A stretch of 64,000 nucleotides of DNA from Ideonella aquatica (GTDB taxonomy: Bacteria; Pseudomonadota; Gammaproteobacteria; Burkholderiales; Burkholderiaceae_C), in NCBI RefSeq assembly GCF_018069755.1, contig NZ_JAGQDE010000003.1, forward strand, positions 310,001 to 374,000. The letters run 5' to 3'. Under the pieces are notes generated by a model. It was not told the origin of the DNA. It saw nothing but the letters and a program-made list of their open reading frames with translations, and did no database searches. Below are positions 46,657 through 60,438 of this stretch, piece by piece. Every line of letters starts with the position of its first letter. The stretch's first letter is position 1. A program made the position numbers and the translations under genes.

Positions 46657-47610
46657 TCAGGCGAGTTGCTGTTCGAGCTGGTGCAGCACCTGGTAGCAAG
46701 CCAGCACGCCCGCCACGCTGCTGTTGGGCTGGCGGCCTTCGCGGATGGCGGCGAAGAACTCGCGGTCCTGCAGTTCGATGCCGTTCATCGACACGTCCAC
46801 CTGGGAGACATCGATCTTCTCGTCCTTGCCGTTGAACAGGTCGTCGTAGCGGGCGATGTAGGTGGCGGTGTCGCCGATGTAGCGGAAGAAGGTGCCCAGC
46901 GGGCCGTCGTTGTTGAACGACAGGCTCAGCGTGCAGATGGCGCCGTTGGCGGCCTTGAGCTGGATGCTCATGTCCATCGCGATGCCCAGCGTGGGATGGA
47001 TCGGGCCCTGGATGGCGTTGGCCTTCACGATGGGGCTGCCGCACTGGTAGGCGAACAGGTCCACGGTGTGGGCGGCGTGGTGCCACAGCAGGTGGTCGGT
47101 CCAGCTGCGCGGCTGGCCCAGCGCGTTCATGTTGGTGCGGCGGAAGAAGTAGGTCTGCACATCCATCTGCTGGATGTTGAACTCGCCCGCCTGGATCTTG
47201 CGGTGCACGTACTGGTGGCTGGGGTTGAAGCGGCGGGTGTGGCCGCACATCGCGACCAGGCCGCTGGCCTCGGCCACGCGCACCACCTCCTCGCCCTCGG
47301 CCAGCACGTCACACAGCGGGATCTCGACCTGCACATGCTTGCCGGCCTGCAGGCAGGCCAGGGTCTGGCTGGCGTGCATCTGGGTGGGCGTGCACAGGAT
47401 GACGGCGTCCAGCTCGGGCAGCGCCAGGCTGTCGGCCAGTTCGGTGGTGACGTGCGCGATGCCGTACTTGTCGGCCACCTCGCGGGTCTTGTCCAGGTCG
47501 CGGCTGATCAGCGAGACCACCTCGACGCCGTCGATGTTCTGGATGCCGTCCAGGTGCTTGATGCCGAAGGCACCGGCGCCGGCCAGCGCCACCTTGATCG
47601 TCTTGCTCAT
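46657..47610 (-). CDS. ligC: 4-carboxy-2-hydroxymuconate-6-semialdehyde dehydrogenase (LigC/PmdC)
   Basis: NADP-dependent oxidation of the protocatechuate 4,5-cleavage product (in its hemiacetal form) to 2-pyrone-4,6-dicarboxylate. The 317-residue Gfo/Idh/MocA-type protein has a Rossmann start (VALAGAGAFGIKHLDGI), EIPLCDV at the active-site Lys/Asp region, and long blocks typical of LigC/PmdC (YFFRRTNMNALGQPRSWTDHLLWHHAAHTVDLFAY in segments). Third enzyme gene in the ligA-ligB-ligC run, 19 bp after ligB. Confidence 0.95.
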   Translation of the reverse strand: MSKTIKVALAGAGAFGIKHLDGIQNIDGVEVVSLISRDLDKTREVADKYGIAHVTTELADSLALPELDAVILCTPTQMHASQTLACLQAGKHVQVEIPLCDVLAEGEEVVRVAEASGLVAMCGHTRRFNPSHQYVHRKIQAGEFNIQQMDVQTYFFRRTNMNALGQPRSWTDHLLWHHAAHTVDLFAYQCGSPIVKANAIQGPIHPTLGIAMDMSIQLKAANGAICTLSLSFNNDGPLGTFFRYIGDTATYIARYDDLFNGKDEKIDVSQVDVSMNGIELQDREFFAAIREGRQPNSSVAGVLACYQVLHQLEQQLA

Positions 47611-47629
47611 GTTGTCCGTCCTTGGAGAG

Positions 47630-48499
47630 TCAGCGGTTGTTCTGCAGGATCAGGTGCCCGACCGCGGTGTTGCTGGCGGGCACATGGTAGAAGCGGTGCT
47701 TCACGGTGGGGGCCGGGCCGCCGGCCACATCGGCCATCGCGCCGCGGGCGATCAGCCACATGACCAGCTCGATGCCCTCGCTGCCGGCCTCGCGCACGTA
47801 GTCGATGTGCGGGGTGGCGGCGCAGGCGGCGGGGTCGGCGATCAGCTGATCGAGCCAGGCGTTGTCCCAGACCCGGTTGATCAGGCCGGCGCGCGGGCCC
47901 TGCAGCTGGTGGCTCATGCCACCCGTGCCCCAGATCTGCACCTTCAGCGGCTCGTCGTAGCTCTCGATCGCGCGGCGGATGGCCTGGCCCAGCTGGAAGC
48001 AGCGGCGGCCCGAGGGCACCGGGTACTGCACCACGTTCACCGCGAAGGGGATGACAGGGCAGGGCCAGGCGCCATGCACCGGGTCGCGCTGGCCGAACAT
48101 CAGGCTCAGCGGCACGGTCAGGCCGTGGTCGACGTCCATCTTGTTGACGATGGTGAGGTCGAAGTCGTCCTGGATCACGCTCTGCGCGATGTGCGCGGCC
48201 AGCTCGGGGTGGCCCTTGACCATGGGCACCGGGCGCGGGCCCCAGCCCTCGTCGGCGGGCTTGAACTCGGCGGCGCAGCCGATCGCGAAAGTGGGGATCA
48301 GCTCCAGGCTGAAGGCGGTGGCGTGGTCGTTGTAGACCAGGAAGATGACGTCGGGCTTGTCTTCTTCGATCCACTGCTTCGAGTACTCGTAGCCCTGGAA
48401 GACGGGCTGCCAGTAGGGCTCGGCGCTCTTGCCCAGGTCGAGGGCGGCGCCGATGGCGGGCACGTGCGAGGTGTAGACGCTGGCGGAAATGTGGGCCAT
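47630..48499 (-). CDS. ligB: Protocatechuate 4,5-dioxygenase beta (catalytic) subunit
   Basis: Extradiol ring cleavage of protocatechuate (and often gallate) between C4 and C5. The 289-residue product starts at the ATG at 48499 ([17 protein letters not shown]). Iron-ligand histidines are visible as H12 (YTSHVP) and H59 (VYNDHATAF), as in the class II extradiol family. It is 4 bp from the alpha-subunit stop, so the two subunits are co-translated. Confidence 0.96.
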
Positions 48500-58587: not shown

Positions 58588-59416
58588 CGGGGTCGAAGCC
58601 ATCGATCTGGAACACGGGCTGGCGCTGCCAGGCGCGCAGCCGCTCGGTCAGGGCCTGGCGCGCCTGGGCCAGGCGGTCGGCATGGCGCAGACGCAGTGCC
58701 GGGCGCACCCACACCAGGTGGGCGCCGTGGCCTTCGGCATCCTGCAGCCAGGCCAGACCGTCGCGCGCCGGCAGCTCGAAATCGCGCCGCTGCCACAGCA
58801 CCACCGGCACCACGTCGTGCGGCGCCAGCGCGTCCATCACGGCGCCCAGCGTGGCGGCCGGCCAGTGGAAATCGGAGGCCAGGAAGACCAGGCAGCGCTG
58901 GCGCGGCAACTCGGCCACCGCGGCCAGCAGGCCGTCGATGCCGGCGGCCTGCGCGCCCTGGCGCCGGTGGGCCTGCAGCGCCTGCGCCAGCACCGGGCCG
59001 CAGCCGCGCTGGCGCGTGGGCGGCCAGGGGCCCAGGCGGTGCAGCGCGCGGTCGGCGCCCAGGCAGCCGAAGGCATCGCCCAGGCGCTGGGCCGACCAGG
59101 CCAGGCTGTCGGCCAGAGCGGCCAGGGCCTGCACCCGCGGTGGCGGCGTGTCGTCGTCCATCGAGGCCGACAGGTCGGCCAGCAGCACCACCGTGACGGC
59201 GCGCCGCTCGGCCAGCGTGCGCACCCACCACTGGCCCAGGGGGTCGCGCAGGCTGGCGTGGATGTCCAGGCGGCGCGGGTCGCCGCCATCGACCAGCCGG
59301 CGGTGGCCGCGGAAGGCCAGGCCGGCATCGCCCTGGCGGCTGCGGTGGGCGCCGGGGCGGTGGCCGCCGGCGTCCCAGCGCAGGCGGTAGGGAATCTCGC
59401 GCGGGCCGGGTGTCAT
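58559..59416 (-). CDS. mxaS: MxaS-like DUF58 protein
   Basis: A 285-residue cytoplasmic protein with a vWA-like DUF58 domain: MIDAS-type LLADLSASMDDD near residue 80 and a strand FLASDFHWP near 180. MoxR ATPase plus DUF58 partner is the core of these chaperone systems. Its start overlaps the mxaR stop by one base. Confidence 0.82.
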   Translation of the reverse strand: MTPGPREIPYRLRWDAGGHRPGAHRSRQGDAGLAFRGHRRLVDGGDPRRLDIHASLRDPLGQWWVRTLAERRAVTVVLLADLSASMDDDTPPPRVQALAALADSLAWSAQRLGDAFGCLGADRALHRLGPWPPTRQRGCGPVLAQALQAHRRQGAQAAGIDGLLAAVAELPRQRCLVFLASDFHWPAATLGAVMDALAPHDVVPVVLWQRRDFELPARDGLAWLQDAEGHGAHLVWVRPALRLRHADRLAQARQALTERLRAWQRQPVFQIDGFDPDAFAVHFQA

Positions 59417-60438
59417 CAGGGGGCCCCGACACGGGCCAGCAGCTGCTCGATCAGCGGCGGCAGCAGCGCCTCGCGGCGCAGTTCATAGGCGGGCTGCAGG
59501 CACAGGCGGTGGGCGATGCAGGGGCCGAAGACAGCGCGCACATCGACCGGGCGCAGGTGATCGCGGCCATCGAGCCAGGCATTGACGCGCGCGGCGCGCA
59601 GCAGCAGGCTCATGCCGCGCGGGCTGGCGCCGGCCAGCACCAGGGCCGCGCTGTCCACGCCCGGCAGCTCCACGCCCACACCTTGCGGCGCGGCGGTGGC
59701 CTCCCACAGGCGCAGCGCGTAGTCCTGCAGTGCCTCGGACGCATGCACCGCGCGCTGGATGGCGTGCGACAGCGCCGGCAGCGCAGCGATCGGCGCGATG
59801 CCCTCGGGCACCTCGGCGACCAGGCTGTCGGTGTCGTGAAAGCGTGGGTCGAAGGCCAGCGCGCGCCGCAGCGCCGGGTCGGTGGGCGCGTCCACCGCGA
59901 TCTCCATCATGAAGCGGTCGCGCGCGGCGCTGGCGATCTCGAAGGTTTCCTCGCGCTCCAGGCGGTTGCGGTCGGCAAAGACCTGCAGGAGCGGCAGCGG
60001 CACCTCGCGGTTGAAGGCCTGCACGCTGCGCTCGGCCATGGCGCGCAGCAGCAGCGCATGCACCTGCGGGCGGGCGCGGTTGATCTCGTTGAAGAAGAAG
60101 ATGGCCAGCGAGTCGCCCTCGCGCGTGAGCGGCCCGGGCTCGATCGCCGGGCGGCCGGATTCATCGACATAGGCGTGGTACAGCAGGTCATTGGGCATCA
60201 GGTCGACGCTGCCCTCGATGCGCGCGAAGCCGCCGCCCAGGCCGCGCGCCATGGCGCGCAGCAGCGTGGTCTTGCCCACGCCCACGTCGCCCTGCAGCAG
60301 CACATGGCCGCGGGCAAAGACCGCGGTCACCAACTGGCGCACCGCGGTGGACTGACCCACCACGACCGCGTTGACCTGGTCTTCCAGTTGCCGGGCGCGC
60401 GCCCGGCCGTCGGCGAGCACGCCGTCGTCATTGGCCAT
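59416..60438 (-). CDS. mxaR: MoxR-family AAA+ ATPase (MxaR-like)
   Basis: A 340-residue AAA+ chaperone ATPase. Walker A is GDVGVGKTT, Walker B FFFNEINRA, and the sensor/arginine-finger region follows near FADRNRLEREETFEI. MoxR proteins work with vWA partners to mature metalloenzymes. An ATG at 60438 (MANDDGVL) is preferred over an upstream start at 60534. First of six genes in mxaR-S-A-C-K-L order; no mxaF, xoxF or mdh2-type dehydrogenase lies in the window. Confidence 0.87.
   Translation of the reverse strand: MANDDGVLADGRARARQLEDQVNAVVVGQSTAVRQLVTAVFARGHVLLQGDVGVGKTTLLRAMARGLGGGFARIEGSVDLMPNDLLYHAYVDESGRPAIEPGPLTREGDSLAIFFFNEINRARPQVHALLLRAMAERSVQAFNREVPLPLLQVFADRNRLEREETFEIASAARDRFMMEIAVDAPTDPALRRALAFDPRFHDTDSLVAEVPEGIAPIAALPALSHAIQRAVHASEALQDYALRLWEATAAPQGVGVELPGVDSAALVLAGASPRGMSLLLRAARVNAWLDGRDHLRPVDVRAVFGPCIAHRLCLQPAYELRREALLPPLIEQLLARVGAP

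Follow-up and report, generated by a model that had tools for sequence, protein, structure and literature searches.

Calcium insertion into methanol dehydrogenase and ring cleavage of protocatechuate are served by two gene sets with well-described relatives. The genes mxaRSACKL are known from methylotrophs as part of the cluster mxaFJGIRSACKLD, and excerpts of a report on Methylotenera mobilis JLW8 and M. versatilis 301 give mxaRSACKL together with the pyrroloquinoline quinone (PQQ) dehydrogenase XoxF and no MxaFI (PMC4109929). The Comamonadaceae-type protocatechuate/gallate 4,5-cleavage (lig/pmd) operon, which serves the degradation of lignin-type aromatics, is found on Diaphorobacter and Acidovorax plasmids in the order SBP-LigJ-LigK-DUF1932-LigI-LigA-LigB-LigC-AKR, where SBP is a gene of substrate-binding-protein fold and AKR an aldo/keto reductase gene. 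Here we analyzed a 64,000-nucleotide stretch of Ideonella aquatica DNA (contig NZ_JAGQDE010000003.1, positions 310,001 to 374,000; the window), which lies on contig C33 of a draft genome (G000; 5.17 Mb, 58 contigs). Six contiguous minus-strand genes in the order mxaR-S-A-C-K-L (60438-55111), with abutting or overlapping neighbors, adjoin a lig operon of the same orientation, and domains, homology and position bore out this description by the initial annotation. We consider it probable that two known modules stand side by side here, a XoxF accessory set and a lig operon with its own predicted operator/promoter, which most likely respond to separate signals.

As in the methylotroph cluster, the six genes are the same, stand in the same order and are homologous to clusters beside mxaF. 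The locus differs in that no mxaFJGI genes lie alongside, the lig operon follows downstream and the genome holds no MxaF-level match. Because linked mxaFJGI structural genes are absent, we call it the mxaRSACKL block and not the mxa methanol dehydrogenase cluster. The combination of mxaRSACKL with XoxF and without MxaFI is that of the two Methylotenera strains, but the excerpts list two accessory copies there (PMC4109929), whereas here a single mxaL match was found, XoxF is on another contig and lig adjoins. The downstream module is a lig/pmd operon of the Comamonadaceae type with the gene order of the two plasmids. It differs from them by a tannase gene between ligI and ligA, by mxaRSACKL in the place where the plasmids carry a divergent LysR gene, and by a genome that yielded no LigU/GalD-family gene. 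A one-carbon (C1) detoxification gene adjoining gallate-pathway genes is also described for Pseudomonas sp. NGC7, in which the formaldehyde dehydrogenase gene fdhA2 is part of the galBCD operon; according to excerpts of that paper this is one dehydrogenase in an operon tested by reverse-transcription PCR (PMC12314914), unlike the present locus with its dehydrogenase-maturation block.

The junction of mxaL and the lig operon

The features at the junction are as follows.

55111..56073, minus strand: mxaL, von Willebrand factor A (vWA) protein (vWA domain; one match in the whole genome)
55111..55121, minus strand: operator-like element ATAGCAGATAG, consensus ATANCWGNTAG, whose TAG is the mxaL stop codon
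55036..55110, minus strand: mxaL-SBP gap of 75 bp, conserved in three genomes
54355..55035, minus strand: SBP-fold gene (SBP_bac_11), first gene of the lig operon (PF13531, 145.9 bits; GTG start)

The junction is shared by two same-genus genomes, G011 (92% MxaL identity, colinear region) and G002, in which the 3′ part of mxaL lies at a contig start. In the alignment of the three, two (G011) and one (G002) extra bases are inserted between ATG 55089 and GTG 55035. In both relatives the reading frame from ATG 55089 is thereby lost, and GTG 55035 is therefore the start codon of the first lig-operon gene; the stretch GTG-ATC-CAA-GGC-ATC is conserved in all three. The gap of 21 bp given by the initial annotation rests on the wrong start codon, ATG 55089, and is replaced by the 75 bp between 55110 and 55036.

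The element ATANCWGNTAG was found ahead of the SBP gene in 10/10 sequences, approximately 95-166 bp before conserved ISSMATR codons. These were eight same-genus genomes and, tested afterwards, the Diaphorobacter and Acidovorax plasmid operons, and seven of the ten have no mxa genes upstream. The same-genus genomes without upstream mxa are G004, G005 and G013, in which the lig operon follows the SBP gene, and G003 and G007, in which ligJ alone follows. When all loci were scanned (2.9 Mb, duplicates included), 13 of the 17 distinct sites preceded protocatechuate-pathway genes, namely the 10 SBP genes, two LigU genes at the heads of lig operons (G012 and G015) and one pobA. In a background of 786 kb, both strands, nine matches occurred, comprising seven SBP sites, one LigU site and the pobA site. 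This last site (L014:10360, minus strand) belongs to the genome of the window, where pobA (4-hydroxybenzoate 3-monooxygenase; TIGR02360, 670 bits) occupies L014:9079-10341 on contig C54. The element shared by lig and pobA suggests a small protocatechuate regulon.

In G011 and G002, mxaL also ends at the TAG of the element, and MxaL matches from other genomes mostly stop at residue 296-313 of 320, about 7-24 residues short of this point. Given the shared element at the stop codon and the shorter MxaL elsewhere, the mxaL tail seems to consist of lig control DNA. Another conserved stretch, AGAAT (55073-55069), is a candidate -10 box. No terminator-like site was found by a terminator scan of 54300-61200, and some read-through from mxa into lig is therefore possible; a GCCGGC hairpin in the gap was rejected as terminator, having no T-run and a fold z of -1.97. 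The initial annotation regarded read-through as a likely route of lig expression, a proposal that lost its support, as the operator-like element at the mxaL stop is common to mxa-less lig loci, LigU-led operons and pobA. Because the same element precedes all of these, the lig operon probably has its own predicted operator/promoter, for which read-through from mxa would be possible and not needed.

On contig C2 of G011 (L216:8639-11399), a LysR gene about 74% identical to a lig-linked LysR is divergent from a RuBisCO-like gene, assigned from its N-terminus. Such an unlinked LysR was considered as a displaced lig regulator and dropped, since it adjoins the RuBisCO-like gene in G011.

PQQ dehydrogenases and the association of the block with XoxF

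The initial annotation reported no PQQ dehydrogenase and no PQQ gene. This holds for the window, where genome searches placed neither a PQQ dehydrogenase nor PqqC, and not for the whole genome, which encodes PqqC on contig C15 and, likewise beyond the window, three PQQ alcohol dehydrogenases: XoxF on C7 and a PedE-like and a PedH-like protein on C54. The search for mxaF and xoxF that had been proposed thus gave XoxF (TIGR03075, 717 bits), followed by a cytochrome c (XoxG) and a MoxJ-type XoxJ (TIGR03871, 286 bits), and found no MxaF. A diagnostic residue separates lanthanide from calcium enzymes, Asp being the lanthanide type. It is Asp in XoxF (motif WDFDG) and in the PedH-like protein, and Ser in the PedE-like protein (WDFSG). 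Between the PedE-like and PedH-like genes (L013:9151-14533) lies a lanmodulin gene (L013:12214-12729; NF053806, 159 bits, above cut-off), and this cluster suggests lanthanide use in the genome. A gene for a 254-residue protein follows xoxF-xoxG-xoxJ on C7 (L016:7357-8121), and many loci of relatives also have it close to xoxFGJ or to the mxa block.

We determined the co-occurrence of MxaL and XoxF in 250 family genomes, drawn evenly from a larger group. MxaL was present in 26 and XoxF (E <= 1e-220) in 30, with both in 25 (Fisher p = 2e-28, ignoring the tree); by genus, 18 of the 19 MxaL-positive genera have XoxF (p = 1e-18, again ignoring the tree). In the genus of the window, XoxF was found in 5/5 MxaL carriers versus 2/11 non-carriers (p = 0.005). 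The two genes are 4.7-15.8 kb apart in 10 of the 25 co-carriers, and in G015 the mxa block adjoins xoxF. As a second sample we used named MxaR loci, the best 80 of at least 484 confirmed, several of which end at contig ends; because some contigs of the family draw seem to recur among them, the samples are not independent. Of these 80 loci, 15 have XoxF near the block, 30 have MxaF (L171 has both) and 36 have neither. Where the diagnostic site was covered, it is Asp in 13/13 XoxF neighbors and Ala in 28/28 MxaF neighbors.

In 32 MxaL carriers searched with the Methylobacillus MxaF, the best matches had 49-52% identity, the XoxF level, and none exceeded 52%; the search covered matches at E <= 1e-130, which 29 carriers gave and G036, G139 and G142 did not, so that a fragment could be missed. 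In a control with this query, identities were 62-89% for 13 of the 30 MxaF loci and 49-50% for four XoxFs. The mxaRSACKL genes, described as the calcium-insertion set of MxaF, are thus found in this Burkholderiales family almost only with XoxF and with no MxaF-level match. The block is most likely to be read as a XoxF accessory set, in the sense of an association and not of a requirement. Family members with XoxF only would be well suited to asking whether lanthanide enzymes are matured by the set.

Distribution of the junction

Relatives were searched in 60 genomes, and absence of lig genes means that none was found in the stretch covered, up to about 10 kb on each side of mxaL. Seven genomes, including that of the window, carry MxaL, and lig lies beside mxaL only in G000, G011 and G002. 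Among the 25 further MxaL carriers of the family draw, lig genes were at none of the 28 mxaL places (L213 ends just past mxaL), nor were any found in the best 80 named MxaR loci. LigJ was detected in 12 of the 16 genus genomes, of which three have the junction, seven lack MxaL and two (G010 and G015) carry mxa on another contig. Elsewhere, the genes preceding lig vary and include LysR, a glutathione-peroxidase-like gene after LysR, unrelated genes, a PcaK-like transporter (below cut-off) and LigU. The arrangement looks limited to one small lineage of three close relatives. The comparison of synteny proposed with the initial annotation therefore shows the junction kept in G011 and G002 and not in the other carriers covered, and leaves a general C1-aromatic unit unsupported. 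The junction should be cited as a C1-aromatic supra-operon only with RNA data in hand.

Explanations of the locus

In the arrangement of two modules with probably separate signals, one past rearrangement would have placed mxaRSACKL before the lig operon, with its breakpoint at the lig operator. The MoxR ATPase and the vWA proteins may help to assemble or metallate XoxF in the periplasm, by analogy with calcium insertion into MxaF, and its own element would serve to activate lig, probably along with pobA. Expression of mxa and lig would then most likely follow separate signals, with some read-through possible.

Several observations weigh against this interpretation, either on the side of the element or on that of the block. 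Four of the 17 ATANCWGNTAG sites are unrelated and lie in other genera; the motif was framed with eight sequences already known, and five of the 13 pathway sites came to light later. The lig heads of G010, Arthrobacter and G009 (the last at a contig end) showed no such element. A sigma-70 promoter scan of the region gave nothing, and for this reason we infer the putative lig promoter from conservation. No lig regulator was identified, the unlinked LysR being the one that adjoins a RuBisCO-like gene in G011. With respect to the block, XoxF occurs without an MxaL match in 5 of the 30 XoxF genomes (G028, G097, G130, G208 and G285) and in G004 and G008 of the genus, so that XoxF does not depend on the block in every genome. 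G142 has MxaL without XoxF (76% complete, weak match), and in G036 XoxF is only a fragment at a contig end. Finally, according to excerpts of a review, XoxF does not require mxaACKLD or mxaRSEH (PMC11845868).

An alternative is that mxa and lig are co-transcribed as one C1-plus-aromatic unit, in which methanol or formaldehyde from methoxylated aromatics or methyl esters would be oxidized during ring cleavage. The common strand, the 75-bp gap without a terminator-like site, the conservation of the junction in three genomes and the tannase in the operon are all consistent with it, and fdhA2 in the galBCD operon of NGC7 is a precedent, with methanol and formaldehyde released in syringate catabolism according to the same excerpts (PMC12314914). 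That release could also make a C1-aromatic coupling possible as a by-effect of two separately controlled modules. Nevertheless, the operator-like element of lig is common to mxa-less loci and pobA, the structural dehydrogenase is on another contig, and the junction recurs neither at the 28 mxaL places of other family genomes nor in the best 80 named loci. In G015, moreover, the lig operon also has the tannase, yet mxa is beside xoxF on another contig. We regard co-transcription as one unit as unlikely.

Two other clients of the block can be proposed. Maturation of an aromatic-pathway enzyme instead of a PQQ dehydrogenase, offered as an alternative in the initial annotation, draws on the adjacency in three genomes, but the block tracks XoxF and not lig. 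LigJ is present in 12/16 genus genomes and MxaL in 5/16, seven of the 12 LigJ genomes lack MxaL, and two of the five MxaL carriers (G010 and G015) have mxa on a different contig from lig, neither near the genes of the other, so that this role appears very improbable. Service to the calcium-dependent PedE-like protein of C54 in place of XoxF would agree with the link of MxaACKL to calcium insertion in excerpts of a further paper (PMC6028718) and with Ser at the diagnostic position of WDFSG. It is opposed by the tracking of XoxF by MxaL and by PQQ dehydrogenases of 33-40% identity to XoxF, calcium and lanthanide types unsorted, in seven of the nine genus genomes with neither XoxF nor MxaL (G001, G003, G006, G007, G009, G013 and G014). 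Given such proteins in these genomes, we reject a main-client role for the PedE-like or PedH-like protein, and a PedE-directed block is doubtful, with the odds well against it.

The protein encoded at the junction

The first protein of the lig operon begins almost directly with the PF13531 domain, and no signal peptide is apparent (by eye, in nine aligned sequences). Elsewhere its gene is annotated as substrate-binding or 'molybdate transport' protein, and a PDB search gave one weak molybdate-binding match (E 0.002). The gene precedes ligJ in eight genus genomes (G000, G002, G003, G004, G005, G007, G011 and G013); in G003 and G007 it is paired with ligJ, and the rest of the downstream stretch covered (9-10 kb) contained no further lig genes. 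At the same operon position, behind the same element, G015 and G012 carry a LigU gene, that of G015 being a 4-oxalomesaconate tautomerase (NF033377, 521 bits, above cut-off). The LigU/GalD (PrpF) family, PF04303, gave no match in G000, G011 and G002 (G002 80% complete).

The protein may be a cytosolic binding-fold 4-oxalomesaconate isomerase, or its obligate partner, as a non-orthologous replacement of LigU/GalD and not part of a transporter. This proposal is made because of the absence of an apparent signal peptide, the occurrence in 4,5-cleavage operons of organisms ranging from Burkholderiales to Arthrobacter, the position of LigU taken behind the same element, the pairing with ligJ and the absence of a LigU-family gene in the three junction genomes; we hold it tentatively, as a possibility that is rather less than even. 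A LigU/PrpF-family gene elsewhere in five of the eight SBP-gene genomes (G003, G004, G005, G007 and G013) weakens the replacement reading. The passages and listings of the literature covered contain no paper that assigns the isomerase step to this protein, and the paper on the Comamonas pmd operon (PmdU) lies outside them. What makes the protein of interest is its place: behind the same control element, where the 4,5-cleavage isomerase would be expected, there is a binding-fold protein that has no apparent signal peptide.

On plasmids, the tallies come from the best 60 each of 111 LigJ records, 328 LigU-type records and 116 SBP records, and related plasmids are not independent. Among the best 60 LigJ records, an SBP-type gene lies within about 7 kb in 31, a LigU-type gene within about 5 kb in 19 and neither in 10, and none among the matches listed has both. 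The SBP gene is at the same operon position on the Diaphorobacter and Acidovorax plasmids. Its link to lig reaches Arthrobacter keyseri and P. phenanthrenivorans Sphe3; the legend to the operon figure for Sphe3 names pcaT, an 'ABC-type molybdate transport system', after an aryl-alcohol-dehydrogenase-like gene (PMC8431788), and from its position we infer that pcaT is the homolog of the junction gene.

Gene content of the two modules

The block comprises, besides mxaL, the following genes.

59416..60438, minus strand: mxaR, MoxR AAA+ ATPase (AAA_3, 78.8 bits)
58559..59416, minus strand: mxaS, DUF58 protein (PF01882, 64.3 bits)
57676..58602, minus strand: mxaA-like gene, start at 58602 or 58587 (position and homology)
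56624..57679, minus strand: mxaC, vWA protein (VWA_2, 44.6 bits)
56070..56633, minus strand: mxaK-like gene (position, and tblastn matches with the mxaK genes of other clusters)

NCBIfam gave no name above cut-off for any mxa protein. The mxaA-like protein had no match in Pfam and NCBIfam profile searches, and its gene has 20-46% identity to the gene at the same place of other clusters and is undetected in some; the mxaK-like protein has a single tetratricopeptide repeat match, under its cut-off. All six genes match genes in clusters adjoining mxaF, such as those of Methylobacillus (L159) and Methylomonas (L124), with identities to the Methylobacillus cluster of 60% (R), 38% (S), 31% (A), 35% (C), 44% (K) and 37% (L). 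In the loci comparisons, tblastn pieces covering <30% of the query with <80 bits were discarded, and mxaA, mxaK or more were missed in some mxaF-adjoining clusters. Because the block is homologous to mxaF-linked clusters, a MoxR-vWA operon of the bat (Bacteroides aerotolerance) type is unlikely.

MxaR has 97% identity to that of G011, 55-62% to four other MxaR proteins and 54-68% in the 80 named loci. Between G000 and G011, the ratio of nonsynonymous to synonymous substitution rates, computed on coding sequences called by us, ranged from 0.06 to 0.32 across the six genes (mxaR 0.06, mxaS 0.16, mxaC 0.08), indicating that they are under purifying selection. A second MoxR gene of the genome is on contig C9. 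Three family genomes, G119 (L195/L209), G099 (L202/L210) and G210 (L200/L211), have two mxaRSACKL sets each, one of them more diverged from that of the window.

After the SBP gene, the lig operon continues as follows.

53278..54324, minus strand: ligJ, 4-oxalomesaconate/2-keto-4-carboxy-3-hexenedioate hydratase, amidohydrolase (PF04909; about 65% identity to genes annotated fldW, 4-oxalomesaconate hydratase)
52576..53259, minus strand: ligK, 4-carboxy-4-hydroxy-2-oxoadipate aldolase (TIGR02798, 387 bits, above cut-off)
51616..52566, minus strand: DUF1932 dehydrogenase (PF09130; same place in the Diaphorobacter and Acidovorax operons)
50706..51638, minus strand: ligI, 2-pyrone-4,6-dicarboxylate hydrolase, amidohydrolase (PF04909, 204.9 bits, and operon position)
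48910..50571, minus strand: tannase/feruloyl esterase (PF07519, 392 bits)
48504..48893, minus strand: ligA, dioxygenase alpha subunit (PF07746, 129 bits)
47630..48499, minus strand: ligB, dioxygenase beta subunit (PF02900, 277 bits)
46657..47610, minus strand: ligC, 4-carboxy-2-hydroxymuconate-6-semialdehyde dehydrogenase, Gfo/Idh/MocA family (PF19858, PF01408 and operon position)
45596..46597, minus strand: aldo/keto reductase after ligC, beyond the interval of the initial annotation (PF00248)

The genes for LigA, B, C, I, J and K are thus together in the operon, LigC, LigI and LigJ being assigned by domain, homology and position. The aldo/keto reductase gene has the same position in several relatives and on both plasmids. 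A tannase gene is part of the lig locus in G000, G011 and G015 and not in G002, G004, G005, G009, G010, G013 or the two plasmids, and its presence suggests gallate esters as substrate.

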